This document shows, piece after piece, positions 245 to 34,706 of a stretch of DNA of 35,622 nt. This stretch comes from Gammaproteobacteria bacterium (GTDB lineage Bacteria > Pseudomonadota > Gammaproteobacteria > Steroidobacterales > Steroidobacteraceae). The position numbers and the translations under genes were made by a program. The stretch covers positions 1 to 35,622 of the forward strand of contig JAIBJL010000007.1 of assembly GCA_020029545.1 (NCBI GenBank), read 5' to 3'. Positions within the stretch are counted from its first letter, which is position 1. Each line of letters opens with the position of its first letter. The notes below the pieces were generated by a model, which saw only the letters and a program-made list of their open reading frames with translations, searched no databases and was not told the origin of the DNA.

Positions 245-272
245 GTCGCCCGTAGCCCGTAGCCCGTAGCCC
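245..272. repeat. Heptad repeat arm H: gtcgccc-gtagccc-gtagccc-gtagccc
   Basis: Four consecutive 7-bp units read directly; ends 7 bp before the CPBP ATG. Confidence 0.9.
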
Positions 273-279
273 GCCTCCC

Positions 280-1164
280 ATGCGCATATTCCTGATGTTT
301 GTCGGACTGCTCGCCGGCTCGCTGCTGATTGCGGCGGCACTCACCTATCCCGCGTGGCTGCTCGTAAGCCTGGTCTCCATCGAGCCGGTACATCGGGTCA
401 TGCATCGCGTCGCCATGTTGCTGGCCCTCGTTGGACTGGTTGCGCTGACGCGACGACTCGGCTTGTCCAATCGGGAGTCGTTGGGTTTCGGCATGCCGCG
501 CACGCAGTTCCTGCGGCAACTGATGGCGGGCTGGATCGGTGGTCTGCTGCTCATGCTGCCGCTGGTGTCGCTGCTGCTGTGGCTGGACGTTCGCGAGATC
601 CGTCCCGACAAGCTCACGGAGCTCGGCAAGCTCATCGCCAGCGGCATCGTATCGGGGCTGACGATTGCGCTGATCGAAGAAATATTTTTCCGCGGCATCT
701 TGTTCACGGCGATCCGGCGCACTTCGAGCGCACTCGCGGCGGTGGTCGCACCGAGCGCGCTGTATGCTTCGCTGCATTTTCTCGGCGGCAAACTCAGCGT
801 GCCGGCGGCCCAAGTGAATTGGGAGCACGGCTTCATCGTACTCGCCCGTCTGTTCGAACGTTACGTGCAGCCGCTGGCGCTTGCGGATTCGTTTCTTGCG
901 CTGTTTGCGCTGGGTATCCTGCTGTCGCTGTTCCGCCTACGAACTGGCTCCATTGCGGCGGGCATGGGGCTCCATGCCGCCGGCGTGGCCGTGATCGCGG
1001 TATTGCGAGGATCGACGCACCTGAACGAACACGACGCGCAGGCATTTCTCGTCGGCAGCTACGATGGCGTGATCGGCTGGGCCGCGCTGCTTTGGTTTGC
1101 GCTGCTCATTGCGAGCTTTGTCTCCTACGAACGTTTGGTGCAGCGTCGGCTTGAAGGGATGTAG
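280..1164 (+). CDS. CPBP family intramembrane metalloprotease
   Basis: Hydrophobic protein with EExxxR-type motif (LIEEIFFRGILF) and later H-containing motif (SALYASLHF). Confidence 0.88.
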   Translation: MRIFLMFVGLLAGSLLIAAALTYPAWLLVSLVSIEPVHRVMHRVAMLLALVGLVALTRRLGLSNRESLGFGMPRTQFLRQLMAGWIGGLLLMLPLVSLLLWLDVREIRPDKLTELGKLIASGIVSGLTIALIEEIFFRGILFTAIRRTSSALAAVVAPSALYASLHFLGGKLSVPAAQVNWEHGFIVLARLFERYVQPLALADSFLALFALGILLSLFRLRTGSIAAGMGLHAAGVAVIAVLRGSTHLNEHDAQAFLVGSYDGVIGWAALLWFALLIASFVSYERLVQRRLEGM

Positions 1165-1179
1165 GGGTGCGATCCAGGA

Positions 1180-1283
1180 CCTGGGGCGCGGGGCCTGGGG
1201 CCTGGGTCGGAAACTCGAATCCATGCAACATGCGCCGACGCGATCCGCCTCCTCCTACCCAGGCCCCACGCCCCAGGCCCTAT
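1180..1283. repeat. Inverted heptad element A (CCTGGGG family)
   Basis: Left arm 1180-1207 cctgggg-cgcgggg-cctgggg-cctgggt; right arm 1256-1283 tacccag-gccccac-gccccag-gccctat; lies between convergent genes. Confidence 0.88.
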
Positions 1284-1295
1284 CTGCCTCCGGTT

Positions 1296-1889
1296 TCAAC
1301 CCGACATGCTGCCGGCAATCACCGGGATGCGTGCGCGCAAATATGCCAGGCGCGCCGGCGCATCGCTCATTTCCAGACAGCGCTGCCGGTCGCCGGGCAG
1401 CAAGGGCAGAATCTCCGCCAGGCGCATTGAAACCCAGACGGCATCGTCGTAGCGCGGTGTCGCGAGCCTGCGGCCTTCGGTCAGGCGCGGCCACAGTTCA
1501 CGCAGCACGCCGGCGAGATCCTCATGAACGGTCGGCACGTCGATGGGTGTCTCCGCAGCGATCCAGGTGACATCGGCGATATTCAGACCATCGGCTTGCC
1601 GACGCATGTCAACAACGCGAAAACGGCGGTCGCCCGTTGCCGTGATACCGAGCAGGCCATCGTCCAGTCGCTCGAAGTCGATGATGTTCGCGATCGTACC
1701 GACCGTGGTCGTCTTGACCTCGGTGCCAGCTTCCATGCCATCGAGAATCAGCACGACACCGAATCCCGCGCTATCGCGCAGGCAGCGGCTGATCATGTCG
1801 ACATAGCGCGTTTCGAAAATACGCAGCTTCAACGCGCCTTCAGGAAACAGCACCGTTCGCAACGGGAACAGGGGAATCGTGTCGGACAT
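1296..1889 (-). CDS. LON peptidase substrate-binding (LON N-terminal) domain protein
   Basis: IPLFPLRTVLFPEGALKLRIFETRYVDMI is the classic LON N-domain start; no ATPase/protease domain. Confidence 0.88.
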   Translation of the reverse strand: MSDTIPLFPLRTVLFPEGALKLRIFETRYVDMISRCLRDSAGFGVVLILDGMEAGTEVKTTTVGTIANIIDFERLDDGLLGITATGDRRFRVVDMRRQADGLNIADVTWIAAETPIDVPTVHEDLAGVLRELWPRLTEGRRLATPRYDDAVWVSMRLAEILPLLPGDRQRCLEMSDAPARLAYLRARIPVIAGSMSG

Positions 1890-1899
1890 AGGAATGACT

Positions 1900-1975
1900 G
1901 TGGGCGGTAGGCCGTAGGCTGTGGGAAATCAGGCAGCATTCTGCTCCGGCCTACAGTCTACAGCCCACAGCCTAT
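1900..1975. repeat. Inverted heptad element B (GTAGGCY/GTGGGCK family)
   Basis: Left 1900-1927 gtgggcg-gtaggcc-gtaggct-gtgggaa; right 1948-1975 ggcctac-agtctac-agcccac-agcctat. Confidence 0.88.
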
Positions 1976-3345
1976 GGCTTTGTCTTCAGCGCCGCGAGCA
2001 GCTTCAGGTGAATCCCGCCGAAGCCGCCATTCGACATGATCAGCACGTGATCGCCTGGGCGTGCTTCTTTTGCCAACGCGGCAATCAGCTGATCGAGATC
2101 TTTCGCGACGCTGGCCCGCTCGCCGAGGACAGCGACCGATTCGGCCACATCCCAGTGCACGCTCGGCCCCTGATACATCCATACCCGGTCGGCGTGACTC
2201 AGCGATTTTGCGATCGCATCGCGGTGCGTGCCGAGCTTCATGGTGTTCGAGCGCGGCTCCAGTACCGCAATCAGGCGCGCATTGCCGATGCGGCGACGCA
2301 GTCCATCGATCGTGGTGTCGATGGCAGTAGGATGATGCGCAAAATCGTCATACACCGTCACGCCGTTTTCGACACCGCGCACTTCCATCCGGCGACGCAC
2401 ACCCGTGAACGAACGCAGCGCCTCGATGGAGGTCGCGACATCTACCCCGGCATGGCGTGCCGCAAGGATGGCCGCAAGCGCGTTCTCGGCATTGTGACGT
2501 CCGAGCATCGACCACTGCACGGCACCGACCTCGCGCTCGCCCTCCATGATCAGAAAGGAGGAATAGTCGCCACCGGGTTCGATCACGGCGTACCACGCTG
2601 TGTCGCCGCTCGCGGTCGCGGCAAAGCGTTCGACGGGCGTCCAGCAGCCCTTGTCGATCACTTCCATGACGTGCACGTCAGCCGCGTTGGCGACCACCAG
2701 GCCATTGTGCGGCACCATCCGCAGCAGCTGATGAAACTGCCACTGAATGGCGGCGACGTCGGGATAAATGTCCGCGTGATCGTGCTCGAGATTGTTCAGC
2801 ACCGCGGTGCGCGGCCGGTAATGGACGAACTTCGCGCGCTTGTCGAAAAAGGCGGTGTCGTACTCATCGGCCTCGACGACGAAGTGCCGGCCGCTGCCCA
2901 GTCGTGCGGTGACGTTGAAATTACCCGGCACACCACCGATGAGGAAACCTGGATTCAATCCGGCATGTTCGAGCAGCCAGGTGAGGATGCTGGAGGTCGT
3001 GGTCTTGCCATGCGTGCCGGCGACCGCAAGCGTCCAGCGATCCGCCAGGATGTGACGCGACAGCCACTCGGGTCCGGATGTGTAAGGAATACCGCTGTCC
3101 AGCAGTGCTTCGATCAACGCATTGCCGCGACTCATGACATTGCCGATCACGACCACATCCGGCTTGAGCGCCAGCTGCCCCGGGTCGTAGCCGTCGATGA
3201 GATCGATGCCCAGCGCAGTGAGCTGATCCGACATCGGCGGATAGACATTCTGGTCGGAGCCGGTGACACGATGCCCTGCGGCACGCGCCAACGCCGCAAT
3301 GCCTCCCATGAAGGTGCCACAGACGCCGAGAATGTGAATATGCAT
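1972..3345 (-). CDS. mpl: UDP-N-acetylmuramate:L-alanyl-gamma-D-glutamyl-meso-diaminopimelate ligase
   Basis: MHIHILGVCGTFMGGIAALARAAGHRVTGSDQNVYPPMS, GTHGKTTTSS Mur-ligase P-loop. Confidence 0.95.
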   Translation of the reverse strand: MHIHILGVCGTFMGGIAALARAAGHRVTGSDQNVYPPMSDQLTALGIDLIDGYDPGQLALKPDVVVIGNVMSRGNALIEALLDSGIPYTSGPEWLSRHILADRWTLAVAGTHGKTTTSSILTWLLEHAGLNPGFLIGGVPGNFNVTARLGSGRHFVVEADEYDTAFFDKRAKFVHYRPRTAVLNNLEHDHADIYPDVAAIQWQFHQLLRMVPHNGLVVANAADVHVMEVIDKGCWTPVERFAATASGDTAWYAVIEPGGDYSSFLIMEGEREVGAVQWSMLGRHNAENALAAILAARHAGVDVATSIEALRSFTGVRRRMEVRGVENGVTVYDDFAHHPTAIDTTIDGLRRRIGNARLIAVLEPRSNTMKLGTHRDAIAKSLSHADRVWMYQGPSVHWDVAESVAVLGERASVAKDLDQLIAALAKEARPGDHVLIMSNGGFGGIHLKLLAALKTKP

Positions 3346-3357
3346 GCAGCAAGACCG

Positions 3358-3489
3358 GTGAGTGGTGAGTGGTGAATAGTGAATGGAAGGAAGGTCCCGA
3401 CGCTAGTCTCACACAGCCGGGGCCATTCGCGCTGGTGGTCATTCTGGCGGTTTCCCTCCACTATTCACCCCCTCACGACTTACACGACC
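3358..3489. repeat. Inverted heptad element C (GTGAGTG/GTGAATA family)
   Basis: Left 3358-3385 gtgagtg-gtgagtg-gtgaata-gtgaatg; right cctccac-tattcac-ccccctc-acgactt from 3455; between divergent mpl and rnd. Confidence 0.82.
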
Positions 3490-3498
3490 CATTCAACT

Positions 3499-4629
3499 GT
3501 GTCCCCCACACGTTACGCGCATACCGAATCCGAACTCGCACACGCACTGTCGCTGTTGGCCGCCAGCGATTTCGTCGCTATCGATACCGAATTCATGCGG
3601 GAGAGCACCTATTTCCCACGGCTATGCCTGGTGCAGGCGGCGACCGCGGAACATTGCGTGCTGATAGATCCGCTGGCCATCCAGGACCTGTCGGCATTGT
3701 GGGACTTTCTGCTCGACCGGCGCCGGTTGAAGGTGCTGCACGCTGCGCGACAGGATCTCGAGACGCTGACCATTGCGATGTCCCGATCGCAGCCGGGTGC
3801 GCCGACCAGCATTCCTGGTCCGTTATTCGACACACAGATTGCCGCGGGCCTGCTCGGGCATGCCGGACAGATTGGCTATGGGGGACTGGTCCAGGCGCGC
3901 CTCGATCATGTCCTGGTGAAAGGACACGCGCGCACCGACTGGACCCGTCGTCCGCTCAGTCCGGAGCAGCTCTCCTACGCCGCGGACGATGTGCGCTATC
4001 TCGTCCCGCTGTACCGCGATCTGCAGGCAGCATTGGCGGCGCGGGGCCGCACCGCGTGGGCCGACGAGGAGAATGCAACACTGGAAGATCCCAGTCTCTA
4101 TCGCACCGAACCCCAGGATGCGTGGCGTCGCTTGAAGGGGCTGGACCGCATGCAACCGGACCAACGCGCGATCATTAAGCTGCTGGCGCAATGGCGCGAA
4201 TCGCGAGCCATCGACAGCGACAAACCGCGTGGCTGGATTCTCGCCGATGAAGCCCTGCGGGAAGTCGCCGAACGTCGGCCCCAGTCGATCGACGATCTGC
4301 AGCGCATCCGTGGCATCCCGGAAGGCACGATCAAACGTCAGGGTGATGAGCTGCTGCGGCTGGTTCGCGAAGGACGACTGGCTGCCGGCAATGAAGCGGC
4401 TGCGACGATTCCGACCAAGCCAGATCCACAGCAGTTGGCGGAGGTTACGCGGCTGATGGCTGTGGTGCGGGCGCGGGCGCAGGCGTTACAGATTGCACCG
4501 GAACTGCTGGCGACCCGACGCGACGCCGAGCAGCTGGTATTTTCAGGCCACGCGGACCATGTCTTGCGTGGCTGGCGACGGCAAGCGATCGGGGACCAAC
4601 TCATCGCGCTCGCAGGACCGGCGAAATAG
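3499..4629 (+). CDS. rnd: Ribonuclease D (GTG start preferred over the ORF-track ATG)
   Basis: FVAIDTEFMRESTYFPRLCLVQ, HAARQDLETL, SYAADDVRYL DEDD exonuclease motifs plus HRDC-like C-terminus. Confidence 0.92.
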   Translation: MSPTRYAHTESELAHALSLLAASDFVAIDTEFMRESTYFPRLCLVQAATAEHCVLIDPLAIQDLSALWDFLLDRRRLKVLHAARQDLETLTIAMSRSQPGAPTSIPGPLFDTQIAAGLLGHAGQIGYGGLVQARLDHVLVKGHARTDWTRRPLSPEQLSYAADDVRYLVPLYRDLQAALAARGRTAWADEENATLEDPSLYRTEPQDAWRRLKGLDRMQPDQRAIIKLLAQWRESRAIDSDKPRGWILADEALREVAERRPQSIDDLQRIRGIPEGTIKRQGDELLRLVREGRLAAGNEAAATIPTKPDPQQLAEVTRLMAVVRARAQALQIAPELLATRRDAEQLVFSGHADHVLRGWRRQAIGDQLIALAGPAK

Positions 4630-4676
4630 TTCGACAACAGCGATCCCGACCCGCCGCTGACGGACCGGTTCGCGAA

Positions 4677-5588
4677 CTACTTCTTGCGTGCGGGCCGCTT
4701 CGCGGGGGCCTTTGCCTTGCGCTGCGCCTTCTTGCTGGCCGGCTTTGCTTTCGCCTTGGCTGGTACGGCCTTGCGCCTGGCAACCTTGCTTTTCGACTTG
4801 CTCTTTGCCGACCCCGAGACCGACTTGCGCTTGGCGGGTGCCTGCGACTTTGTAGACGGCTTCTTCGCAGCTGTCTTGCGCTTCGAGGATTTGCTCCTGG
4901 CGACCTTGCGGGCGCGAACCTTCACCTTGCCGGCCGGTGCTCCCCGCGTCAGTGCTGCAGATTCCATTCGCTGGAAGACATCTTCCAGCTCGCCCTCCCC
5001 GGCCACGGTCCGCAGCAGATTCAGCTTCGCGTAGTGCTGAACCAGCGGCCGTGTCTGTTGTTCATACACTTCGAGGCGCTTGCCGATCACGGCTTCCTTG
5101 TCGTCAGGACGCTGGAACAGTTCGGCACCATCCTTCGAACAACCGGTCGCACCGGGCGCCATGGAATGCACGTTGTACACAGTGCCGCACTTGGGACAGA
5201 TGCGACGGCCCGCCAGGCGCTCCATCAGCGTGGAATGGCGAACATCCAGCAGTAATACGGCGTCGAGCGGCTGACCGAGATCTTCAAGCAAGGCATGCAG
5301 CGAGTTCGCCTGATCGATGTTGCGAGGGAAACCATCGAGGATGAAACCCTTGGCCGCATCGGGCCGGCTGAGCCGCTGGCGGATCAAACCGAGCACGATG
5401 TCATCGGACACCAGCTGGCCCGCATCCATGACCGATTTGGCCTTCAGGCCCAGCTCCGTACCTTGTGCGACAGCCTCGCGCAGCAGATCGCCGGAGGACA
5501 CCTGCGGCACGCCATACTTGGCCTGCAGCCGCTGCGCCTGCGTGCCCTTACCCGAACCCGGCGCCCCCAGCAATACGATACGCATCAT
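4677..5588 (-). CDS. adk: Adenylate kinase with 84-residue Lys/Ala/Ser-rich C-terminal extension
   Basis: MRIVLLGAPGSGKGTQA P-loop, FILDGFPRN, Cys-containing LID (CPKC...GCSKDG); C-terminal tail of basic repeats. Confidence 0.95.
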   Translation of the reverse strand: MMRIVLLGAPGSGKGTQAQRLQAKYGVPQVSSGDLLREAVAQGTELGLKAKSVMDAGQLVSDDIVLGLIRQRLSRPDAAKGFILDGFPRNIDQANSLHALLEDLGQPLDAVLLLDVRHSTLMERLAGRRICPKCGTVYNVHSMAPGATGCSKDGAELFQRPDDKEAVIGKRLEVYEQQTRPLVQHYAKLNLLRTVAGEGELEDVFQRMESAALTRGAPAGKVKVRARKVARSKSSKRKTAAKKPSTKSQAPAKRKSVSGSAKSKSKSKVARRKAVPAKAKAKPASKKAQRKAKAPAKRPARKK

Positions 5589-5619
5589 TCGATTGCGACT
5601 CCCATTCGATTGCGACTCC
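5586..5619 (-). repeat. Perfect 17-bp tandem duplication spanning the SD and ATG of adk
   Basis: cattcgattgcgactcc at 5586-5602 and again 5603-5619. Confidence 0.95.
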
Positions 5620-5668
5620 CACGATAAAGAGGCGCTACCCTACAGAAAGACACTGCGAAGGGAAATGG

Positions 5669-5821
5669 GCGCGGGGCCCGGGGCGTGGGGCCTGGGCAAG
5701 AGAAGAGTTTAGAAGAATTATTAGAGCATCCGCTTGCCACGCATCATTACCGCGTGCTCGACGGATCGGCTCGGCTTCCTGTCCTGCCCGGGCCGGGCTT
5801 CGGGCCCCGCGCCCCAGGCCC
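5669..5821. repeat. Inverted heptad element D (GCCTGGG family)
   Basis: Left 5669-5696 gcgcggg-gcccggg-gcgtggg-gcctggg; right 5801-5821 cgggccc-cgcgccc-caggccc. Confidence 0.88.
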
Positions 5822-5873
5822 TTTCTCTGAGCTATCCTTCCCAACTCTCCCCAACTTCCCCCGGTAGCGACCA

Positions 5874-7145
5874 ATGGCCACGAGAATTCCTGTCCGCAAT
5901 GCCTTCTACGCGCAGTCCGGTGGCGTCACCGCCGTCATTAACGCATCGGCATGCGGCGTGATCGAAGCGGCGCGCAAGCAGAAAAAGATCGGCAAGCTGT
6001 ATGCCGGACGTCATGGCATCGTCGGCGCGCTCACCGAAGACCTGATCGACACCAGCAAGGAATCCGCGGCTGCCATCCGGGCGCTGCGCCACACGCCGGC
6101 AGGCGCATTCGGGTCGGCTCGCTACAAGCTCAAGAAATACGAAGACACCCCGGCACAGTACGAGCGCCTGATCGAAGTGTTCAAGGCACATGACATCGGT
6201 TATTTCTTCTACAACGGCGGCGGCGATTCGGCGGATACCTGCCTGAAGGTGTCGCAGCTGGCGGAAACATTGGATTTCCCCATCCAGGCCATCCATGTGC
6301 CCAAGACCGTGGACAACGATCTCCCCATCACCGACTGTTGCCCCGGTTTTGGCTCGGTCGCGAAATACGTCGCGGTATCGATCCGCGAAGCCGGCTTCGA
6401 TGTCGCCTCGATGGCCAAGACCTCGACGAAAGTCTTCATCATGGAAGTGATGGGACGCCATGCGGGCTGGATTGCGGCAGCCGGTGGGCTGGCGGCCGAG
6501 CAGGCGGGCGATGCGCCGCATATCATTCTGTTTCCCGAAATCACCTTCGACGAGGAAAAGTTCTGCGCACGCGTCAAACAATGCGTGGAGAAATACGGTT
6601 ACTGCGCCGTGGTCGTCTCCGAAGGCGTGCGTAACAGCGAAGGGAAATTTCTCGCCGACGCGGGTATTCGCGATGCTTTCGGTCATGCACAGCTAGGCGG
6701 CGTGGCGCCGGTGGTCGCGCAACTGGTCAAGTCGAAACTCAACTACAAGTATCACTGGGCCGTAGCCGACTATCTGCAGCGGGCAGCACGCCACATCGCC
6801 TCGAAGGTGGATGTCGAACAGGCTTACGCCGTGGGCAAAGCGGCCGTTGAATTCGCAATGAAAGGGCACAATGCAGTCATGCCCACGATCGTGCGGGTCG
6901 CGGACAAACCTTACCGATGGAAGATCGGCAGCGCGAATCTGGCGGAGGTCGCGAACCAGGAAAAAATGCTACCGCGCGACTACATTACTGCCGACGGCAT
7001 GCACATCACGGCGAAGGCACGGCGTTATCTGGCACCGCTGATCAAGGGCGAAGACTATCCGCCTTACAAGGATGGACTGCCGCAGTATGTAACCTTGCGC
7101 AACACGCCCGTAAAGAGCAAGACCGGCAAATCCTTTGTGGTATAG
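5874..7145 (+). CDS. 6-phosphofructokinase, probably PPi-dependent
   Basis: FFYNGGGDSADTCLKVS and PKTVDNDLP (ATP enzymes have PGTIDND); MGRHAGW substrate loop. Confidence 0.9.
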   Translation: MATRIPVRNAFYAQSGGVTAVINASACGVIEAARKQKKIGKLYAGRHGIVGALTEDLIDTSKESAAAIRALRHTPAGAFGSARYKLKKYEDTPAQYERLIEVFKAHDIGYFFYNGGGDSADTCLKVSQLAETLDFPIQAIHVPKTVDNDLPITDCCPGFGSVAKYVAVSIREAGFDVASMAKTSTKVFIMEVMGRHAGWIAAAGGLAAEQAGDAPHIILFPEITFDEEKFCARVKQCVEKYGYCAVVVSEGVRNSEGKFLADAGIRDAFGHAQLGGVAPVVAQLVKSKLNYKYHWAVADYLQRAARHIASKVDVEQAYAVGKAAVEFAMKGHNAVMPTIVRVADKPYRWKIGSANLAEVANQEKMLPRDYITADGMHITAKARRYLAPLIKGEDYPPYKDGLPQYVTLRNTPVKSKTGKSFVV

Positions 7146-7280
7146 TCCAGCGCCTTTCGCGCGTTGATATCGCACCAGTTGCTTGATTTTCAAAGCAATA
7201 AGCGGCGCCGTAGCGCTCGCGACAGTCAGCGCTCGTCCATAACATTTCAGACAACGAAAGCCCGTTCGGGAGGGAAATAC

Positions 7281-9326
7281 ATGTCCACAGATCTCGTGCT
7301 CTGGCTTGCTATTGGCGCCGGTGCGCTCGCCGTGCTCTACGGCGTGTTCGCGTTCAGCTGGATCAACAAGCAGTCCGCCGGCTCAGCCCGCATGCAGGAA
7401 ATTGCGGCCGCTATTCAGGCGGGTGCCAAAGCCTATCTGAACCGCCAGTATTCAACCATCGCGATCGTGGGCGTGGTCCTGTTCGTCGTGCTGGGCTTCG
7501 CGCTGGGCTGGGCGACGGCGGGCGGCTTCGCCGTCGGTGCCATTCTATCGGGCCTTGCCGGATTCATCGGCATGAACGTTTCGGTGCGTGCCAATGTCCG
7601 CACCGCTCAGGCAGCCAGTGTCGGCTTGAACCCCGCGCTGGCGGTTGCCTTCCGTGGCGGCGCCATCACCGGCATGCTGGTCGTCGGCCTCGGGCTCATG
7701 GGCGTGGCCGGCTACTTCGCGCTGATGCGCGGCCAGGTCGGCGATGCGCATGCGCTGCACTCGCTGGTGGGCCTCGCTTTCGGCGGCTCGCTGATCTCGA
7801 TTTTCGCGCGTCTGGGCGGCGGTATTTTCACGAAGGGCGCCGATGTCGGTGCCGATCTCGTGGGCAAGGTCGAAGCGGGGATACCCGAAGACGATCCGCG
7901 CAATCCGGCAGTCATCGCCGATAACGTCGGTGACAACGTGGGTGATTGCGCCGGGATGGCTGCCGATCTGTTCGAAACCTATGCGGTGACGATCGTGGCG
8001 ACCATGGTGCTCGGCGGCCTGATGTTCAAAGGTGTCGACGGCGGCCTGGATCTGCGTTACCTGCTGTATCCGCTCGCGCTCGGCGCGGTCTCCATCGTCG
8101 CATCGATTGTCGGGACCTTCTTCGTCAAGGCCTATGAAGGCGGCAAGATCATGAATGCGCTGTATCGTGGCACGGCAGTGTCCGGCCTCCTCGCTCTGAT
8201 CGCGTTCTACTTCGTCACACCGCTCGTGATGGGCGATGGCCACGAAAAATACTTCTACTGCGCCATCGTCGGACTGGTGCTGACCGCAGCGCTGATCTGG
8301 ATCACCGAGTACTACACGGCGACCGAATATGGCCCCGTGCGCGGTGTTGCCGCGGCCTCGCAGACCGGCCATGGGACGAACGTGATTGCCGGTCTCGCAG
8401 TGTCCATGCGTTCGACGGCATGGCCCGTGCTTGCGGTCTGCGCCGCCATCTTCGCCTCCCACAAGCTCGGCGATCTGTACGGTATCGCGATCGCCGCGAC
8501 TGCCATGCTGTCGATGACCGGCATGATCGTCGCCCTCGACGCCTACGGTCCGATCACGGACAACGGCGGCGGCATCGCCGAAATGTCCGGCCTGCCGAAG
8601 AATGTGCGCACGATTACCGACGCGCTGGATGCGGTGGGTAATACGACCAAAGCGGTCACCAAGGGTTATGCGATCGGTTCAGCGGGCCTCGCCGCCCTCG
8701 TGCTATTCGCCGACTACACGCACAACCTGGAAGCCGCCGGCAAACTGCAGGTGTTCAGCCTGTCCGACCCGGCCGTGATCATCGGCCTGTTCATCGGCGG
8801 TCTGGTGCCCTACCTGTTCGGCGCGATGGCGATGGAAGCTGTCGGCCGCGCCGCCGGTTCGGTGGTGATCGAAGTGCGTCGCCAGTTCCGTGAGATCAAG
8901 GGCATCATGGAAGGCACCGGCAAGCCGGACTATTCGCGCGCCGTCGACATGCTGACCAAATCGGCAATCCGCGAAATGATCGTTCCGTCGCTGCTGCCGA
9001 TCCTGGTCCCGGTAGTCGTCGCCTTCGGCATGAACTGGTTGATGGGTCCGGGCGCCGGCGTTCGCGCATTGGGCGGCCTGCTGATCGGCACGATCGTCAC
9101 CGGCCTGTTCGTCGCGATTTCGATGTGCACCGGTGGCGGCGCCTGGGACAATGCGAAGAAGTACATCGAAGAAGGCAACTACGGCGGCAAGGGTTCGGAC
9201 ACGCACAAGGCGGCCGTCACCGGCGACACGGTCGGCGACCCCTACAAGGACACTGCCGGTCCGGCGATCAATCCGCTGATCAAGATCATCAATATCGTCG
9301 CGCTGCTGCTAGTCCCGCTTCTTTAG
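7281..9326 (+). CDS. hppA: Membrane-bound proton-translocating pyrophosphatase, K+-independent type
   Basis: [45 protein letters not shown] catalytic motif; GNTTKA (Lys) signature; SD gggagg before ATG 7281. Confidence 0.95.
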
Positions 9327-9335
9327 AAGCGGGAC
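9312..9335 (+). terminator. Perfect 11-bp hairpin enclosing the hppA stop codon
   Basis: gtcccgcttct-tt-agaagcgggac; no T-tract. Confidence 0.6.
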
Positions 9336-9356
9336 GCGCGCAATGCGACTTGAACA

Positions 9357-9606
9357 GGGCTATCGGCTACGGGCTGCGGGCTGCGGCCAGAGGAAGAACA
9401 GCCCGATTTGAAGATGGATGAGATTTGATACCACGGCGCAGTTCACACTGCGCCGTTTTCTTTTGCGGCGAGGAGGATGACGTAGGAAGGGAGACGGTCA
9501 TCAAGCATCATGTAGAGATGCGCTCATCCGCTTGAGCCGCCACCACAACACTCTGGTGTCTTTCTCTGGCCGTCGCCGGTAGCCCGTTGCCCGTTGCCCG
9601 TAGCCA
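9357..9606. repeat. Inverted heptad element G (GTAGCCC/GTTGCCC family)
   Basis: Left 9357-9391 gggctat-cggctac-gggctgc-gggctgc-ggccaga; right 9572-9606 gtcgccg-gtagccc-gttgccc-gttgccc-gtagcca. Confidence 0.88.
9433..9465 (+). terminator. Rho-independent terminator downstream of hppA
   Basis: acggcgcagt-tcac-actgcgccgt followed by tttctttt. Confidence 0.85.
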
Positions 9607-9626
9607 GCCACCGCGCAGCGGTGGCT
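9606..9626 (-). terminator. Perfect 9-bp hairpin overlapping the GGDEF gene stop codon
   Basis: agccaccgc-gca-gcggtggct; minus-strand TAG is at 9627-9625. Confidence 0.5.
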
Positions 9627-11715
9627 AATACTTTATCAAGCCGCGTCCGAAGTCATCGAGCGCGAACTGACAGCCCATGCCGTGCAAGACGCCGATAAAG
9701 CGCTGGGCATGCTCAATATTGGTGATGACCGAGTTCTCGGTAACTTCGAAGCACACCTGATTGGCGTCGACGCCGGTGCGATCCAGACAGTCCACGACGT
9801 ATTCCAGGAACAGCGGATCGCCCAACGTCTGGCCGGACAGGTTGATCGCAAGGCTGCGGTTCGGGGGCAGCCGGATGTGGCCACGACTCAGCGCGGCCAG
9901 TGCAGCCTGCACGACCCAGCGGTCGACGTCGGCCATCAGGCGATAGCGTTCGGCCGCGCGCAGGAACTCCGCGGGCGAAATGCCTTCTGGAACGGTGTCG
10001 TCCTGCAGCCGCAGCAGGATCTCGAATGCCGGCCCCTGCTCGACTGTCGAGGTCGAGACAACCACCTGCGTCATCAGCGCGAAGCGGTTTTCCTTGAGTG
10101 CTGCCTGCAACCGTTGCAACCACTGAATCTCGCCGCGCTGGCGCGCCACAGCCTCATCGCGTGCCGAATAAACGTGGACGTGATTGCCCTGCTTCTTCGC
10201 CACATAGCAGGCCGAATCGGCGGCACTCATCAATTCTTCCGGCGCGCCGCTCTCGCGCGAGATTTCGATCAGCCCGACGCTGACGCCAATGTTGAAGATT
10301 TTATCTTTCCATACGAAGCGGTAGTCGGAGGTCTTGCGCACGACGTCATCGGCGATCTGCCGCGCCTTCTCGAGCGGACACCCCACCAGGAGCAGACCGA
10401 ATTCATCGCCGCCGAGCCGGCCGACCGTATCCGAGTCACGCACGGTTTCCTTGATGAGTGCCGCGACCTCGCGCAGCATGCTGTCGCCTGCGAGATGTCC
10501 GCAGCTGTCGTTGACCGTCTTGAAGCGATCCAAATCCAGGTAGCACAGCACATGGCGCGCCGTGTTGGAGTGAGCACTTTGCAGTGCTTCTTCCAGCCGG
10601 CGTTCGAATTCGCGTCGGTTGACCAGCCCGGTCAGCGCATCGTGACTGGCCTGGTAAGACATCTGGCGTGCAATACCACGCACTTCGCTGACGTCGCGCA
10701 CGACAATGACGGTACCCGTCAGATCGCCGCGCTGGCCCTTGAGCGGCGTTACGGTCAGCTCGACCGAGCGCTCTTCGCCGCCGTTACTGGAGACCATCAA
10801 GCCGCGCCGACCCACCGTGACGCGGCTCTGGGTGCTCAGGCACTGGCGTACCGGATCGCCCAGCGAGCGCCGGTCGGCTTCATCCAGCAAGGTGAATAGT
10901 TCGGCGATCGTCTTGCCGAGCGCGTCGACGCTTTGCACACCGACGATTTGCTCGGCCGCCTGATTCATATAATCGATCCGGCCGCTGACATCCGTGGTCA
11001 GGATGCCCTCGCCGAGCGAATCGAGCGCCTCCCAGGCGCTGGGCTGCGGACGCGCCAGAGAGGTCGTGCCCGACAGCGGTCGTGGCCCCATTTCCACTAT
11101 CGTCAGCAGCAGCGCCGGGCCGCCTTGATAGTCGATTCGCACGGCCGAGAGTTCGACACGCGCGGTCTGTTCGCCCACACCGAGCAATTCGACTTCCAGC
11201 CGCTCCAGGCCGGGAGCACCCGCCAGCGAGCGCCGCAGCTGTTCGCCGAGCAGCTCGACATAGTCCGGATGCACCAGCACCGACGTAGGCTTGCCGACCA
11301 GCGTGGTCGCATCCCGTGTGCCGGTCAGCGCCGCGAAGCGCGCATTGGCGAAGACGATGCCGTCGCGATAAACCGCAACTGCCTCATTCAATCCGCCCAG
11401 CAAGCTGGTCAGCGAGCGTTCGCGCTCCTGGATCATCAGCTCGCGAATGGCCATCTGCTCCAGCAACTGATTGGCACTGTCGATCAGCGGGCTACGGATT
11501 GCGCCGGCACGCAGCCGTTCCGCGAAGCGGCCACCGGCGACGATGCTGGAAAACTGGGCAACCGCTTGCATGAGCGCAGCAGCGCGCCGTTCGCGCCACA
11601 GCAACACCCCAAGTGCGATGACAGCGATCACAAGGCAAATAGTCAGGGTCGCCAGCAGGGCGCTCACATTGAACCGCCGATCTTGTTCGTCATTTCCCGT
11701 ACGCGTCCTCTGCAA
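9625..11715 (-). CDS. Membrane PAS-GGDEF diguanylate cyclase with truncated, degenerate EAL domain
   Basis: N-terminal TM; PAS-like regions; RDSDTVGRLGGDEF (I-site RxxD + GGDEF); EAL part reads EILLRLQ and stops at ALDDFGRGLIKY. Confidence 0.9.
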   Translation of the reverse strand: MQRTRTGNDEQDRRFNVSALLATLTICLVIAVIALGVLLWRERRAAALMQAVAQFSSIVAGGRFAERLRAGAIRSPLIDSANQLLEQMAIRELMIQERERSLTSLLGGLNEAVAVYRDGIVFANARFAALTGTRDATTLVGKPTSVLVHPDYVELLGEQLRRSLAGAPGLERLEVELLGVGEQTARVELSAVRIDYQGGPALLLTIVEMGPRPLSGTTSLARPQPSAWEALDSLGEGILTTDVSGRIDYMNQAAEQIVGVQSVDALGKTIAELFTLLDEADRRSLGDPVRQCLSTQSRVTVGRRGLMVSSNGGEERSVELTVTPLKGQRGDLTGTVIVVRDVSEVRGIARQMSYQASHDALTGLVNRREFERRLEEALQSAHSNTARHVLCYLDLDRFKTVNDSCGHLAGDSMLREVAALIKETVRDSDTVGRLGGDEFGLLLVGCPLEKARQIADDVVRKTSDYRFVWKDKIFNIGVSVGLIEISRESGAPEELMSAADSACYVAKKQGNHVHVYSARDEAVARQRGEIQWLQRLQAALKENRFALMTQVVVSTSTVEQGPAFEILLRLQDDTVPEGISPAEFLRAAERYRLMADVDRWVVQAALAALSRGHIRLPPNRSLAINLSGQTLGDPLFLEYVVDCLDRTGVDANQVCFEVTENSVITNIEHAQRFIGVLHGMGCQFALDDFGRGLIKY

Positions 11716-12051
11716 TACGAGAGTCGCCGCCTATAGTTCGATTGCCGTCAGTACGCGCCAACGACGTAATCCGGCGGCTGTCTGAATAACGCTTAACGCC
11801 TGGACTCCCGTGACGAGAGCATATAGGACGCTCAAATTTATACCTCGCGGATTGACCATAATGGTAAAGGGGATCGTGACGAATGACGCGCATGGTTTCT
11901 GCCGATAAGTGCATCGGGGTTCCCGCGTGCAAATCCTGCCGCATCGATGCGGTCCGCCGGTCCTGGCTGTACGGCAATACGCCTTCACCATAACCTTGTC
12001 TGGCGGAATCAAAGCCCGTACCCTTTGCCGCCCGGACCCACGTCAGCACCC

Positions 12052-12702: not shown

Positions 12703-12818
12703 CGAATCCGGCGAATCTTTTTTTGCCGCATCAGGCGGGACTGCGGACGTTTGAACCGTCTGTACCCCTAGCAGTCTCTCGGACTGTCTGTTACTCCACC
12801 CTTGTTGGTCCCACATTC

Positions 12819-13139: not shown

Positions 13140-13244
13140 CACGTCCAATGGTCGCACTCGCGGCGAATCGAAATCGCGGCGTGTTAATGTTGAAGTCAAT
13201 GTTGAACAACAGTCACGCGCCAAGGCGTGAATGGGAAAGGACCA

Positions 13245-14666
13245 ATGACCTTACGTGCTCATATCCTGGCCATCCTGGGCCTGACGCTGGCAACGAGCAT
13301 CGCCGGCGCGGCCGATCTTCTGGAGGTGTACAAACGCGCCCAGGAAAACGATCCGCAGATTCGCGAGGCTGAAGCCAACCGTCTCGCCTCGCTGGAAGCC
13401 AAACCGCAGGCGCGCGCAGCCCTTCTGCCCACGCTGACTGCCACCGGCCAGCAGGATCGCATCGACTCGGAGTCGCAAAATACCCGGGCCGACGTGGGCC
13501 CGGATGGCAATTTCCTCCAAGTGGCCAGCACCACGAAGGTCGATGGCCTCAACTCACGCACCTACGGCTTTCGCCTGACTCAGACGATATTCCGCTGGGA
13601 CCGCTGGGCCGGGCTCGCACGGGCGGACAAACAGGTGGCCCAGGCGGAAGTCGACTACAAGGCCGCCGAACAGGATCTGTTGTCGCGCACGGCACAGCGA
13701 TACTTCGACGTACTTGCGGCCGCGGACACCCTCAAGGCGGCCCAGGCCTCGCTCGAAGCCTTTTCACGGCAGCTGGAGCAGGCAGACAAGCGCTTCGAAG
13801 TCGGCCTCATTGCCATCACCGACGTGCAGGAAGCGCGTGCCGCGCGCGACCAGGCGTCCGCCTCCGTCATCGCAGCCAAGCGATCCGTCGCTTCCTCGCA
13901 GGAATTCCTGCGCGAACTCACCGGTGAAGCCTTTCGCGATCTATCCGAACCCGGCGCAGACATGCCGTTGAAGAGCCCCGACCCTGCCAGCGAGGATCAG
14001 TGGGTCCGTGTCGCGCTGGAACAGAATCTGTCGCTGATTTCCGCGCGCCTGCAAACGGAGATCGCGAAGGAAGATGTGCGTGTGGCTCGCGCCGGACACC
14101 TGCCGACAGTGGACCTGGTCGCGCAGCGCTCCCGCGACCGCGACGACGGCGAAGGCGTCACCATCCGCGGCAGCACGGGCACGGTCATTCCGCTGAGTTC
14201 CGATGCTTACAGCAACACCGACTCGATCGGCATCCAGGTGAGTGTCCCGATTTTCGCCGGTGGCGCCACCCAATCGCAGGTGCGGCAGCGGGTTTACCTG
14301 CATCGAGCCGCACGCGAACGTTCGGAACGCACGGCCCGCGAGACCGAGCGCGCCACGCGCGATGCCTACCTCGGAGTGATCAGCGAAATTTCACGGGTCC
14401 AGGCATTGCGACAGGCACTGGAGTCATCCCAGACGGCATTGCAGGCGACCGAAGCCGGCTTCGAAGTCGGCACTCGCACCACGGTCGACGTGCTCGATGC
14501 TCGACGACGACTGTTCGATGCGCAGACCAACTACGCACGCAGCCGCTACGACTACATCATCAACGTCCTGAATCTGAAGGTGGCCGCAGGCGGCCTCAGC
14601 GAAACCGACCTGGCGGAAGTGAACAGCTGGCTGACGCAGAAGTCGACCACCGGGTTGACTCGCTAA
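13245..14666 (+). CDS. tolC: TolC family outer membrane efflux protein
   Basis: Signal peptide, DLLEVYKRAQENDPQIREAEANR, two repeated OEP halves, YNYxxxRYDYIINVLNLK-like end. Confidence 0.92.
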   Translation: MTLRAHILAILGLTLATSIAGAADLLEVYKRAQENDPQIREAEANRLASLEAKPQARAALLPTLTATGQQDRIDSESQNTRADVGPDGNFLQVASTTKVDGLNSRTYGFRLTQTIFRWDRWAGLARADKQVAQAEVDYKAAEQDLLSRTAQRYFDVLAAADTLKAAQASLEAFSRQLEQADKRFEVGLIAITDVQEARAARDQASASVIAAKRSVASSQEFLRELTGEAFRDLSEPGADMPLKSPDPASEDQWVRVALEQNLSLISARLQTEIAKEDVRVARAGHLPTVDLVAQRSRDRDDGEGVTIRGSTGTVIPLSSDAYSNTDSIGIQVSVPIFAGGATQSQVRQRVYLHRAARERSERTARETERATRDAYLGVISEISRVQALRQALESSQTALQATEAGFEVGTRTTVDVLDARRRLFDAQTNYARSRYDYIINVLNLKVAAGGLSETDLAEVNSWLTQKSTTGLTR

Positions 14667-14674
14667 AGGACTTG

Positions 14675-20709: not shown

Positions 20710-20728
20710 CACATGCCGGCGGCATGTG
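20710..20728. promoter_or_regulatory. Perfect inverted repeat in the intergenic space upstream of the DUF3450/TtpC operon
   Basis: cacatgcc-ggc-ggcatgtg. Confidence 0.4.
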
Positions 20729-22947: not shown

Positions 22948-22999
22948 GACGGTCTGTACTCCAATCTTCAGGTGGACCAGGTCGGGCGGAACCGACAGG

Positions 23000-27246: not shown

Positions 27247-27508
27247 CCGGTGCGGCCGGCGGCCGGCAGACGTGAGTTGGGTTGTCCGGCGGTTCCAGGA
27301 GCATGAACCGCCGCGGCACGCGCGATCAATGTGCCGCCGGACGACACATGCGAAATTCCATGGTGCATGTTGCAGGGCAGATAAAGGAAAGGGTCACTGC
27401 TGATGCAGACGGACGGATACGGCGCGACCCCACCCTGGAACGCGTGATACCGACGTTACGAACGCTCGACGCGCTGCGCGGCTCGTGCGTCCATGGAGTT
27501 CTGCGACG

Positions 27509-28747: not shown

Positions 28748-28875
28748 GGGTTGGTCTGGTTCGCGCGGCCGCCCAAGCTGAGCGCGAGCAGTCCGGCCGG
28801 TGGCGCAGCGACCGGATCGATCCCAGCAGTGGCGGCCAGGCTGTCGCCGGCCAGGCAGATCAGGCGAATCAACAT
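28744..28875 (-). CDS. Small ORF (43 aa; 59 aa if ATG at 28923) overlapping the JmjC gene start by ATGA
   Basis: MLIRLICLAGDSLAATAGIDPVAAPPAGLLALSLGGRANQTNP*; hand-counted GC3 35/43, GC1 30/43, GC2 25/43. Confidence 0.55.
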   Translation of the reverse strand: MLIRLICLAGDSLAATAGIDPVAAPPAGLLALSLGGRANQTNP

Positions 28876-29015
28876 GAGTTTCCCGGTGAGCCGCTGGCAG
28901 GGCCCCTCGACAGGACCTGGCATAGTAGCGGTACAGTGGAGACGGTAACCGACGCCCTGCCCCTACCACGCAAGGTCAATTTTCTTCAAGGCTGCGCAAT
29001 GACTGCTCTGACGAT

Positions 29016-30941: not shown

Positions 30942-30943
30942 CC

Positions 30944-32854
30944 CTAGCCTGCGCCTGCCGCCCGAACTTCAGGAACCGCACTCGGCACGGTGAAAAAAAA
31001 TGTAGCTCCCCCGCCCACCTCGCTGCTCGCCCACAACCGCCCGCCGTGCCGCTCGATCAAGCGGTGCACGATGGCCAGCCCGACACCGCTGCCCGGAAAC
31101 TCGTGCTCATGGTGCAGCCGATGAAACATGATGCCGAGCTTGTCGGCATAGCGCATGTCGAAACCCGCGCCATTGTCGCGTACGTAAAAAACGACTTCGT
31201 CGCCCTGTCGCAACCAGTTCACCTCCACCCGCGGCTGGGTCCGTCGAACCGAGAACTTCAGTGCATTGCCGATCAGGTTCTGTAATACCTGACGCAGCAT
31301 CGTGGAGTCGCCTTTCACGCGCGGCAACTCGGCGATGTCGACCATCGCGGTCGGGTATTGCTCCTGCAGCTCGGCCGCCACTTCCTGAGCCAATTGCTCG
31401 AGCGTGACCGGACTGCGCACCAGCTCCGCCCGGCCGGCATGCGAGTACTGCAGAATATCGTCGATCAGCTGATTGAGCTTCGAGCCTGCGCTGCAGATAC
31501 GTTTGAGCAGCCCGCGACCCTGCTCCGACAGCTTGTCGGCCTCCTGACCGAGCGTCGTGGCGAAGCCGATAATGGCATGCAACGGTGCCCGCAAGTCGTG
31601 CGACACGGTCTGCGCGAAACTCTGCAGATCGCGATTCGCAATCTCCAGATCGGCCGTGCGCGCAGCGACGCGTTCTTCGAGCGTTGCGTTCAGCATGCGT
31701 AAATCAGCCTCCACGGCCTTGAGCTGAGTGACGTCGCGACCTATCGAAAGAACGCTCTCGATCTCACCCGCAGCATTGCGTTCGGGGACGACAATGCAGC
31801 TAACATAGCGGACATCCCCTGAAAAACGAGGCTTGAGGTTTCGTACTTCGAACTCCTGCGGCTGGCCGTCGCGGAAGACACGCCCCAATATGGCAGGTAT
31901 CGAATCGGTGCTCTCGTTGACCTGGTAGTTCCGTGACTCAGGACTTTCACCCACCTTCAGGCCGATATGGTCCTGGAGGGATCTACCTGCATAGCGCTCC
32001 GCAGCCGGGTTGGCATATACAAGCCGCAACTCGCGATCGTGGCGAAGGATATGGTCCGGCGAGTGTTCGACCAACGTGCGGTACTGCCGCTCGCCCTTGC
32101 GCAACTTTTCTTGAGTCACTTTGAGCGTAGTGATGTCCCGGCCGACCGCAATCACGGAAACTACCGCGCCGTCCGCATTGCGTTCAGGCGCGAAATGCAC
32201 CCGATACCAGACCCGCTCCCCATCAGGCAGATCGAATGCATGCTCCGCCTCCTGTACGACACCCGTGTGCACCGTAGCGAGCACTGCCCTTTGAAGCGTC
32301 GGCGCCTGCGAGGCATCGGACCACACCTCGGTCGTCAGGCGCCCGGACCTGTCGGATGGACTGAGCGCGGACCCGCGCAGGGCTGATGCAGTGAAGTACC
32401 GGATGCGTCCGGTGAGATCGTAATGGCCGACCAAGTCCCACGTCTGTTCAAGGATGCTGCGCAACTGCGTGTCCGAGGACGATGTGAGCGCCTCGATGGG
32501 CGCAGCGCGAGCGAGCAGCATGACACCATCCGGGGCTGCGTTCGACCCGGAGATGGGTGACAACGTCCATGACTGAGTACCGACATTCGTCGCGAGGGGC
32601 ACCTGCACCGACAGTTCGACGGCGTCATGCGAGTCGATGCAGCGATGACACGCGTTGGCAATCTGGCCGGCGAGCCTGTTCGGAAAAACGCGCTCGAGCG
32701 GTTGCGCCAGATAGTCGGCGCGAGGGCGACCAAAGAGGCACGCCCAAGCATGATTCACGTTCAACAGTTGAAAGGACTCAGCGGACACCCGGCCCAGAAT
32801 GGCGAGCGCGCCATCCAAGCCATCGAAAACGCAGCGATAGTCGTCCGCATTCAT
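30944..32854 (-). CDS. Soluble multi-PAS sensor histidine kinase (copy 2, paralogue of copy 1)
   Basis: FAQTVSHDLRAPLHAIIGFA, NLIGNALKFS, DNGAGFDMRYADKLGIMFHRLH; 2-bp gap to next gene. Confidence 0.93.
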   Translation of the reverse strand: MNADDYRCVFDGLDGALAILGRVSAESFQLLNVNHAWACLFGRPRADYLAQPLERVFPNRLAGQIANACHRCIDSHDAVELSVQVPLATNVGTQSWTLSPISGSNAAPDGVMLLARAAPIEALTSSSDTQLRSILEQTWDLVGHYDLTGRIRYFTASALRGSALSPSDRSGRLTTEVWSDASQAPTLQRAVLATVHTGVVQEAEHAFDLPDGERVWYRVHFAPERNADGAVVSVIAVGRDITTLKVTQEKLRKGERQYRTLVEHSPDHILRHDRELRLVYANPAAERYAGRSLQDHIGLKVGESPESRNYQVNESTDSIPAILGRVFRDGQPQEFEVRNLKPRFSGDVRYVSCIVVPERNAAGEIESVLSIGRDVTQLKAVEADLRMLNATLEERVAARTADLEIANRDLQSFAQTVSHDLRAPLHAIIGFATTLGQEADKLSEQGRGLLKRICSAGSKLNQLIDDILQYSHAGRAELVRSPVTLEQLAQEVAAELQEQYPTAMVDIAELPRVKGDSTMLRQVLQNLIGNALKFSVRRTQPRVEVNWLRQGDEVVFYVRDNGAGFDMRYADKLGIMFHRLHHEHEFPGSGVGLAIVHRLIERHGGRLWASSEVGGGATFFFTVPSAVPEVRAAGAG

Positions 32855-33001
32855 CCCAGAAGCCGTGGTAATCCATACGTGCTAGTCCCGCTCCACCCAC
32901 CCTGCACCGTTCGGTGGTGGTCGTCAATCAGCGATTAGCCACAGTCGTCTGAGTTTGAACTGGCTCGTTGTGGACAGCCTTGCGCGCAGCGGCGCGGGTC
33001 A

Positions 33002-33050
33002 GATTCTTGATACCCGATCCTGAATCTCAGGCCCCGATTCCCGAATCCTA
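33002..33050. repeat. Heptad repeat arm F (GGATTCG/GGAATCG family on minus strand)
   Basis: Minus-strand reading ggattcg-ggaatcg-gggcctg-agattca-ggatcgg-gtatcaa. Confidence 0.65.
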
Positions 33051-33054
33051 CGGC

Positions 33055-33285
33055 TCATCCGGTAGCGGACCGAAATCCGTCGGCGGTTGGCGATGATTCG
33101 AGCGCGCCTTGAATGCTGGCAATCGTCGCTTCCTCCAGATGAAACTTGGCTGCCGCAGGCGTCGGCGCCTTGGCAGTGCCGGCGACAGGTTTCTGTCCGC
33201 ACCCTGCAATCGCCGTGATACCCAGCGTAGCGACGGCAACTGTCATGAACCGACGCAGTCCCGCACGCACAGTAATGTTCATCAT
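33055..33285 (-). pseudogene. Lipoprotein-like ORF resembling a truncated amidase N-terminus
   Basis: Lipobox ...TAIAGC; FHLEEATIASIQGAL resembles amidase starts (compare LQLDEITIAQVHQAY in the 20977 amidase), then loses similarity. Confidence 0.5.
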
Positions 33286-33336
33286 GGCTGTTCCTTTACG
33301 ATCCCGATCCGAATCATCTGCATTGTTGGTTGAGCG

Positions 33337-34365
33337 TCATTTGCCGAAGAGGGACTTCGGCATCATGGCGTGGACACCCTTGGTGCCATCGACCAGCTGC
33401 GTGACCTGCAGATTCATCGCCGCACTGGCAAGCATGTAAGCGGTCTCGCGAGTCAGGCCTTTCTTTTCGACCAGAAAGTCGAGCATCTCTGAAGTGGCTG
33501 CCTTGGCAGCGTCATCGAGATCCTTGTTGAGTCCCATCGTCATGTAATGAGTTGCTGTTTCCGCACGCGGCCATTTGAGCTTCTGGCCTTTGTGCAGGAA
33601 GACCTGAATCTCGCCCTTGAGCGAAGTTTCGATCGCGCCACCGCAGACCTCACCGTGGCCCTGTGCGGCATGACCATCACCGATCGATAGCAACCCTTGG
33701 GCATTGAACACCGGCAGATACAACGTGCTGCCGGCGCCCAGATCGCTGTTGTCCATGTTGCCGCCAAAGACATTCGGCGGGCCGCTGGCTACTCGTCCCA
33801 TCTCCGGCGGCGGCGCCGTGCCGATGACACCCCAGAAGGGCTTGACCGGCACTTCCACGCCCGGCGCGTACTCGACCGTGCGCTTCTTCATGTCGATCCA
33901 CAAAGCGCGGTCGAACTTGTATTCGAATTGCTCCGGTAAGGTACCGCGCCCGATATTGAAGCCCTGACCGGCGATCGGCAGCCGCACATCGACGGAGCGA
34001 ATGCGAATCTCCAGGGTGTCGCCCGGTTCGGCCCCGCGCACCGCAATCGGTCCGTTGAGCGTGTGATCGCCGCGCCCCTTGCCCTCGACGCCCTCGAACA
34101 CCGCGTAGAGTTCCGCAGGAATCTTTTCCTTGGGCACACCCAGACTTTCGAAATAGCGTGGATTGCCGGAGGCGGTCTCGAGCTTGACGATGTCCCCGGA
34201 ATCGATCGTCAGTACCGGCGGCAGCGTGGCATCGAAGAAGCTGCGATGAACCGTGGTCGGCGACGCTTTCAATTCATGCGTCCGCGGAGCGGCAAGACTG
34301 CTGACGCTGATCCCGGCGACCAGGACTGCACCGAGAGTGCGGGTAGCGATGGCCGACAATTTCAT
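33337..34365 (-). CDS. Acetamidase/formamidase family protein with signal peptide
   Basis: MKLSAIATRTLGAVLVAGISVSSLAA signal; GRGDHTLNGPIAVRGAEPGDTLEI, FWGVIGTAPP, NMDNSDLGAGSTLYLPVFNAQGLLSIGDGHAAQGHGEVCG. Confidence 0.93.
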   Translation of the reverse strand: MKLSAIATRTLGAVLVAGISVSSLAAPRTHELKASPTTVHRSFFDATLPPVLTIDSGDIVKLETASGNPRYFESLGVPKEKIPAELYAVFEGVEGKGRGDHTLNGPIAVRGAEPGDTLEIRIRSVDVRLPIAGQGFNIGRGTLPEQFEYKFDRALWIDMKKRTVEYAPGVEVPVKPFWGVIGTAPPPEMGRVASGPPNVFGGNMDNSDLGAGSTLYLPVFNAQGLLSIGDGHAAQGHGEVCGGAIETSLKGEIQVFLHKGQKLKWPRAETATHYMTMGLNKDLDDAAKAATSEMLDFLVEKKGLTRETAYMLASAAMNLQVTQLVDGTKGVHAMMPKSLFGK

Positions 34366-34385
34366 ACAGGTGTTTGTGTCCGAAA

Positions 34386-34609
34386 GTGAGTAGTGAGTAG
34401 TGAGTGGTGAATAGTGAATGGTTAAGAGCGCAATCTGTCTCGGAATGAAGTGATTCGCGATTGGAGATTGGGAATCGGGAATTGGGAATTCGCCGCAAGG
34501 CTGCGACCCGAACCTGATCCGTGTGGAACGCATCGTGACCCGGACCATTCAGACGAATCCCGGCTCCCGAATCCGGCGGCTCTTCCCGCTCACCACTCAC
34601 CACTCACTT
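34386..34609. repeat. Nested double inverted heptad element E (outer GTGAGTR family, inner GATTGGG/AATCGGG family)
   Basis: Outer 34386-34420 and 34589-34609; inner 34452-34493 and 34554-34574. Confidence 0.85.
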
Positions 34610-34616
34610 CCTCCAG

Positions 34617-34706
34617 TCACGGTTCACCCTTCAACGGCTTGAATCCGGACGGCGGCGTGCGATGCCGAGTAGCCGCCTCTGCTTGCGATTGGTGAACTGC
34701 GGATCG
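34617..34706 (-). pseudogene. Amidase C-terminal remnant
   Basis: Open stretch ending ATRHRTPPSGFKPLKGEP*, similar to the 20977 amidase end THHRTPPVGYGPVKGK; no start and a stop just upstream. Confidence 0.4.

Follow-up and report, generated by a model that had tools for sequence, protein, structure and literature searches.

Inverted pairs of heptad-repeat arms in several unit families share an inner terminus in a Steroidobacteraceae genome and its relatives

Introduction

What places tandem arrays of different seven-base units, in one and the same inverted layout, in the intergenic gaps of a single bacterial genome? The question is raised by a contig of 35,622 nucleotides (JAIBJL010000007.1 of assembly GCA_020029545.1; the whole of it is hereafter the window) from the draft genome of a member of the Steroidobacteraceae, in which a preliminary description had noted several families of 7-bp repeats with an inverted-arm architecture. 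Here we report that the inverted heptad-arm elements of the window are real and belong to a set that spans the genus, and that the host draft genome carries hundreds of arms, which fall into five main families of heptad. As read from the sequence, an element comprises two convergent arms of 3-6 heptads, with the G-rich strand running inward, usually a shared terminus, and a loop that is usually unshared.

Heptamers were the most abundant intergenic tandem repeats in the SPADE survey of 7006 prokaryotic genomes, which gave no clear clue to their function (PMC6344855). The TAACTGA heptamers of Beggiatoaceae form direct arrays of one main unit, with one inverted among about 170 sets (PMC4679880). 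Rehm et al. (2015) described GGGAATC/GGGGAYT heptamers of Xanthomonas and Nostoc; the GGGAATC heptamers of Xanthomonas prefer the vicinity of open reading frames (ORFs), are under-represented between divergent genes, form G-quadruplexes (G4) in vitro and occur as inverted convergent pairs, 70 in Xcc and 75 in Xac (PMC4692102). The inverted format, which the preliminary description could not name, has thus been published for Xanthomonas. Relative to published cases, what is new is that several unit families follow one layout in one genome, with a shared end and with turnover of the unit, that arms lie about 13 bp from the neighbouring ORFs and that every family combines fixed positions with one or two free ones; no description of such a multi-family version was found in the literature searched. 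The genus provides handles that single-unit cases lacked, namely a shared terminus, fixed and free positions within the unit, unit differences at orthologous sites and arms that stop short of ORFs, by which models of slippage, G4, protein sites and mobile elements can be told apart.

Materials and methods

The host draft genome (G000) comprises 5.1 Mb in 619 contigs, the window being contig C397. Arms were analyzed in a 573-kb host sample that is partly hit-selected: 20 contigs or stretches were picked for holding matches, and 18 contigs, amounting to 159 kb, were chosen regardless of matches. Gene calls on this sample (439 genes) were made with a home-made codon-model caller. Family definitions permit variation at some free positions of the unit; mismatches elsewhere were allowed, yet are rare. 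Among the labels used below, G002 is equivalent to L031 and G006 to L042.

Results and discussion

The 7-bp period is a genuine property of this DNA. Tandem Repeats Finder returned period-7 arrays at or adjoining the places named in the preliminary description, strong runs in the window are restricted to period 7 and its multiple 14 (4 versus 0 in Markov-3 shuffles), and the 573-kb sample contains 84 period-7 tracts versus 5 in Markov shuffles, which disposes of the possibility, raised beforehand, that the signal is no commoner than in shuffled controls. Periods that are not multiples of 7 yielded 0-25 tracts each in this sample, most for multiples of three, and 11 period-7 tracts fall in the contigs chosen regardless of matches. 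Genome-wide searches of the host gave 166 matches to two consecutive GTAGCCC units, 190 to a GGGGCNT 23-mer and 317 to three consecutive GTGANTN units, versus 5, 0 and 48 for the respective reversed-pattern controls. The 22-mer said to be identical in window elements C and E is indeed so (3365-3386 and 34400-34421); it has a third exact copy elsewhere in the host and 71 copies with 1-2 mismatches, the reversed control giving 0.

The host sample contains 114 arms (39 GGGCNAC, 35 GTGARTV, 28 GGGGCNT, 6 GGCTGTR and 6 GGGAWTC), with 0 in Markov controls, and their polarity is strongly biased. Among 45 neighbouring pairs less than 400 bp apart, 38 are convergent, with the G-rich strand first (+-), 5 are ++, 2 are -- and none is -+; the two arms belong to the same family in 34 of the 38 convergent pairs, and G006 has 9 +- pairs and 0 -+. 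A laxer, terminus-based detector reveals one -+ pair in the host. Inverted partners are therefore far more frequent than chance, as first proposed, and the opposing outcome envisaged at that time is not what we see. The unit families originally listed have to be redrawn, with several families standing but A and D uniting in one (GGGGCNT), the outer arms of E joining C in another (GTGARTV), and G and H making up a third (GGGCNAC). A GGGAWTC pair is nested within a GTGARTV pair both at E and at L176.

Most arms, across families and genus members, close on the inside with GGYMAGA or a near variant. On the loop side, the run of heptads gives way to a common end that is not itself a heptad unit (GGCCAGA, GGTCAGA, GGTAAGA, GGCAAGA or GGCAGGA), with TCTKRCC on the opposite arm. 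Of 382 GGYMAGA occurrences in the host, 36 follow a period-7 tract, compared with 0-2 for three control motifs; in G002 the figure is 10 of 193, compared with 0-1 for controls, and the distant gammaproteobacteria tested show none. A looser terminus pattern was found in 52/58 GGGCNAC, 47/49 GGGGCNT, 27/41 GTGARTV, 5/8 GGCTGTR and 2/6 GGGAWTC arms, against a background deeper in the loop that is mostly below 20%. GGGGCNT has a higher background, its loops being mutual copies.

The same terminus closes arms made of other units in G002 (GGCNNCT, GGCNACA), G006 (GGGGCTT/GGGGCGT/GGGGCTC, GGTTGAC, GGGCTCT), G012 (GGTTAGC and a period-8 unit, GTGACGAN) and G013 (GGAGACT, GGCTGTA, GGGGCTT), and G003 carries GTGACTG-like arms. 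Arms are dense in G000, G002 and G006, Povalibacter is a cultured carrier, and G001, G009 and G010 give no clear signal. A GGCNRCT+GGCCAGA pattern gave background counts only among 147 members of the order. The PFK protein of the window has its relatives in Steroidobacter, Peristeroidobacter and Povalibacter, and the gene order CAAX-lon-mpl-rnd-adk-pfk-hppA-EAL is common to the window and those relatives. In the hppA-EAL gap, which holds element G in the host, six genus members have an element with differing units (GGGCNAC in G000, GGCNACT in G002, GGGGCTT type in G006, GCGAGCT in G007, period 8 in G012 and GGGCTTG type in G013), and at least six other members have none. In the adk-pfk gap, a GGCNNCT element of L031 lies between the promoter-like boxes that flank element D in the host, and L032 has no element. 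The unit thus turns over at orthologous sites while order, direction and inner end stay. These data bear out and strengthen the initial notion that one format is filled with differing sequences: an inner terminus is common to the families, and the layout persists at orthologous sites whose units differ. The 7-bp period, strong in the window, is not universal in the genus, given the period-8 version of G012. Separately, L265 of G007 (136-11601) contains nine copies of a dispersed repeat family of 8-bp period (GCCGGGTCGCGGGTTCGCGGGTT) within 12 kb. The hppA terminator lies inside the loop in the host, G002, G007 and G012 and is also present where no arms exist, which indicates that the loop is native DNA at hppA.

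Each family consists of fixed positions plus one or two free ones. In GGGCNAC, variability reaches 1.59 bits at position 5 and 0.9 at position 1, no other position exceeding 0.32; the variable positions are 5 and 7 in GTGARTV and 6 and 1 in GGGGCNT. Nearly all units begin with GG in the terminus register and arms have about four units, as in Xanthomonas, where G4 formation by GGGAATC was demonstrated in vitro (PMC4692102); by analogy with the proposal made for those repeats, G-tracts every 7 nt could fold one strand into a G4, with an effect on transcription or replication. We regard this as unlikely here, since non-G positions such as C4, A6 and C7 of GGGCNAC match the Gs in conservation, several units lack GGG and some have no GG tract at all (GCGAGCT in L041, GTGACGAN in G012), and pairing of the arms would compete with a G4. 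Fixed and free positions would equally suit operator-like arms in which one or more proteins read each heptad, as would the lack of correlation between arms at free positions (see below). Such protein-site arrays are nevertheless very unlikely: the unit changes from one species to another and a single genome holds several unrelated units, which would call for several proteins or weak specificity, and the gene classes beside arms, judged by eye, appear unrelated.

The free positions also bear on how arms arise. The two arms of one element match at 16 of 46 free positions versus 14.5 expected, and adjacent units resemble each other no more than do units shuffled within their array, in tests on small samples of 8-23 pairs; together these results argue against simple slippage and arm-to-arm copying. 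In the host, separate loci share the same variant string more often than expected (14 pairs versus 4.3, p=0.0017; 48 versus 24.5, p=0.0007), and this recurrence, in combination with the two results above, points to arms copied between loci. A first comparison gave greater likeness within elements than between them; as variable positions show no correlation, we treat this as a family-level effect and reject arm-to-arm copying. A-specific change in the style of diversity-generating retroelements was likewise discarded: it would suit GGGCNAC, whose C-rich strand has a single A, at the variable position, but not GTGARTV, in which the As are fixed.

A mutational by-product is a doubtful origin. Heptamer slippage would build and lengthen one array, and quasi-palindrome template switching would duplicate it on the opposite side, neither machinery nor function being required; the location of period-7 arrays in neutral gaps, the varying unit numbers, the same-family arms, the existence of uniform arrays and an array-level composition bias for GGGCNAC (p=0.004) all agree with it. 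Besides the two tests above, the first of which leaves arms unmatched and the second of which disfavours the replication slippage suggested in the preliminary description, this origin is contradicted by variation confined to set positions of the unit, by a terminus common across families and species and by the occurrence of one and the same unit at hundreds of unrelated loci.

One family owes most of its numbers to a different process. Host GGGGCNT copies share loops and flanks and form a dispersed repeat of about 200 bp with similar inverted ends CAATGGYGCTKACTTA, probably a miniature inverted-repeat transposable element (MITE), so that most GGGGCNT abundance reflects hitch-hiking on this MITE-like element. 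The repeat, with its central GGGGCNT element, was seen in the host at L153, L156, L166, L168, L176 and L226-L250. In the other families, neither loops nor flanks are related, save for other small dispersed repeats. At L151 (8132-8406), L153 (14928-15108) and L161 (12072-12301), loops of different families contain another dispersed, partly palindromic repeat (..CGGCACTTCCTACCTCCGTGTAGGTCGG..).

Apart from GGGGCNT, placement is non-random and follows gene boundaries. Among the host-sample arms, 102 are intergenic, 11 lie at contig edges and one is in a gene, and the median distance to the ORF is 20 bp from the outer end of the arm and 142 bp on the inner side. Among 23 pairs outside the GGGGCNT family, the outer distance has a median of 13 bp; when only the larger distance of each pair is taken, the median is 28 bp versus 72 bp expected at random (p<0.0005). 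No such departure from random placement is seen for GGGGCNT pairs (p=0.24). Arms occur in 15/44 convergent, 39/154 tandem and 8/61 divergent gaps.

Repetitive extragenic palindromic (REP), REPIN and bacterial interspersed mosaic (BIME) elements, with the RAYT transposase, are a precedent for extragenic, dispersed, paired inverted arms of fixed polarity, with several families and lineage-specific sequence. The explanation that we favour over slippage plus template switching, and hold tentatively as a plausible one, is that the elements are non-autonomous, REPIN-like intergenic inverted repeats, spread and rewritten by a trans-acting process. Such a process would copy arms of one unit family between loci, anchored on the shared terminus, and this anchoring would let a locus keep its element while the unit changes. 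Once transcribed, a pair might form a long hairpin that encloses the intergenic core and acts like a REP/REPIN hairpin at transcript ends, a function that we infer, and the element may be tolerated or kept because its arms halt just short of start and stop codons.

Several results weigh against this explanation. RAYT genes (Y1_Tnp) are absent from the draft genomes G000, G006 and G013, with five in G002; the search of those three draft genomes found no mobile enzyme, and RAYT is rejected as the driver, so the driving process is probably a different one. The native loop at hppA implies that the element was not inserted there in a single piece, and target-site duplications are at the expected level (3.8 versus 3.7, p=0.34). 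Part of the variant-string excess stems from uniform arrays, and the terminus is weak in GGGAWTC (2/6) and in some GTGARTV arms. As a separate observation, L031 of G002, the genome with Y1_Tnp genes, has a REP-like inverted pair (CTGTGGGGCCGGCTTCAGCCGGCC ... GGCCGGCTAAAGCCGGCCCCACAG) at 13448-13600, just before its heptad element.

The elements resemble REP and REPIN sequences as extragenic inverted pairs of fixed polarity, but their arms read as heptad arrays rather than as short palindromes with a guide tetranucleotide, and three carriers lack Y1_Tnp. They share with the heptamers of Rehm et al. about four units per arm, dispersal, intergenic location near ORFs, rarity between divergent genes and, in Xanthomonas, inverted convergent pairing. 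Those heptamers, by contrast, have one unit type per genome, whereas the host has five main families, unit turnover at orthologous sites and the GGYMAGA end; the unit of Rehm et al. (GGGNATC/GGGAATC) is represented in the host by only 6 of 114 arms (GGGAWTC), and the few GGGAATC arms in G404, a xanthomonad-like control with too few repeats for a firm comparison, end differently. GGGGCNT copies are MITE-like in sharing loop, flanks and the inverted outer ends noted above, unlike the other families, which share no loop or flanks and show no target-site duplication. Beggiatoaceae TAACTGA repeats and the short tandemly repeated repetitive sequences of cyanobacteria are likewise intergenic seven-base tandem repeats in many copies. 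VIPR guide RNAs, with GGY/NN repeats (PMC13142463), are ruled out by their period of 5 and phage loci.

A bolder and doubtful version of trans rewriting is that dedicated, previously undescribed trans-acting machinery recognizes the end GGYMAGA/TCTKRCC and surrounds intergenic cores with paired arms of heptads, using a heptad template that shifts between lineages, so that one mechanism would rewrite the same sites with new units. If true, it would help to explain the dominance of heptamers among the intergenic tandem repeats of many bacteria.

Elements of the window

Paired elements are given here without strand. Element H (245-275, minus strand) is a single GGGCNAC arm that reads GTCGCCCGTAGCCC... 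on the plus strand, with its inner end TTCTGGCT at the left and no partner arm seen within 200 bp. Element A (1177-1287; GGGGCNT) has arms at 1177-1211 and 1253-1287 around a 41-bp loop and sits between the convergent CAAX and lon-like genes, at 18 and 14 bp from them; its loop is similar to that of the MITE-like repeat, whose ends it lacks. Element B (1903-1972; GGCTGTR) occupies the lon-mpl gap, which is 82 bp in the host and 13-15 bp in three relatives, and its right arm abuts the mpl stop codon.

Element G (9357-9606; GGGCNAC) has its left arm at 9357-9391 and its right arm from 9565, the former stopping with GGCCAGA and the latter opening with TCTGGCC. Its 173-bp loop includes the rho-independent terminator of hppA (9436-9461, plus strand; CGGCGCAG..CTGCGCCGTTTTC), and a similar terminator is found in relatives without arms. 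Element E comprises outer GTGARTV arms at 34383-34425 (plus strand, ending GGTTAAGA) and 34585-34610 (minus), a nested GGGAWTC arm at 34467-34492 (plus) and a decayed one at 34556-34575 (minus; GAATCCCGGCTCCCGAATC), which was read by eye and pairs in the predicted fold. All six window elements have predicted folds better than shuffles (z -3.3 to -6.0), as expected from the inversion of their arms. The window has no Rfam match at gathering score.

Strong predicted hairpins and the higher share of convergent than divergent gaps with arms might suggest bidirectional transcription terminators or 3'-end hairpins, a candidate already listed in the preliminary description. This role is highly improbable, and the candidate does not fit: C (3353-3484; GTGARTV, left arm from 3358, right arm at about 3453-3484) and D (5667-5816; GGGGCNT type, arms at 5667-5701 and 5782-5816) lie between divergent genes, mpl/rnd and adk/pfk respectively, and the loop of G has a separate, ordinary terminator, both of which set the elements apart from rho-independent terminators (a short GC hairpin plus T-run at gene ends); loops are also often long. 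Element D is flanked by conserved promoter-like boxes, CTACCCTA (5625-5640) and GCTATCCTTC (5829-5842), which are conserved in the compared relatives on either side of a variable adk-pfk centre. Adjoining D, at the adk start, the window carries a perfect 17-bp tandem duplication, CATTCGATTGCGACTCC (5586-5621).

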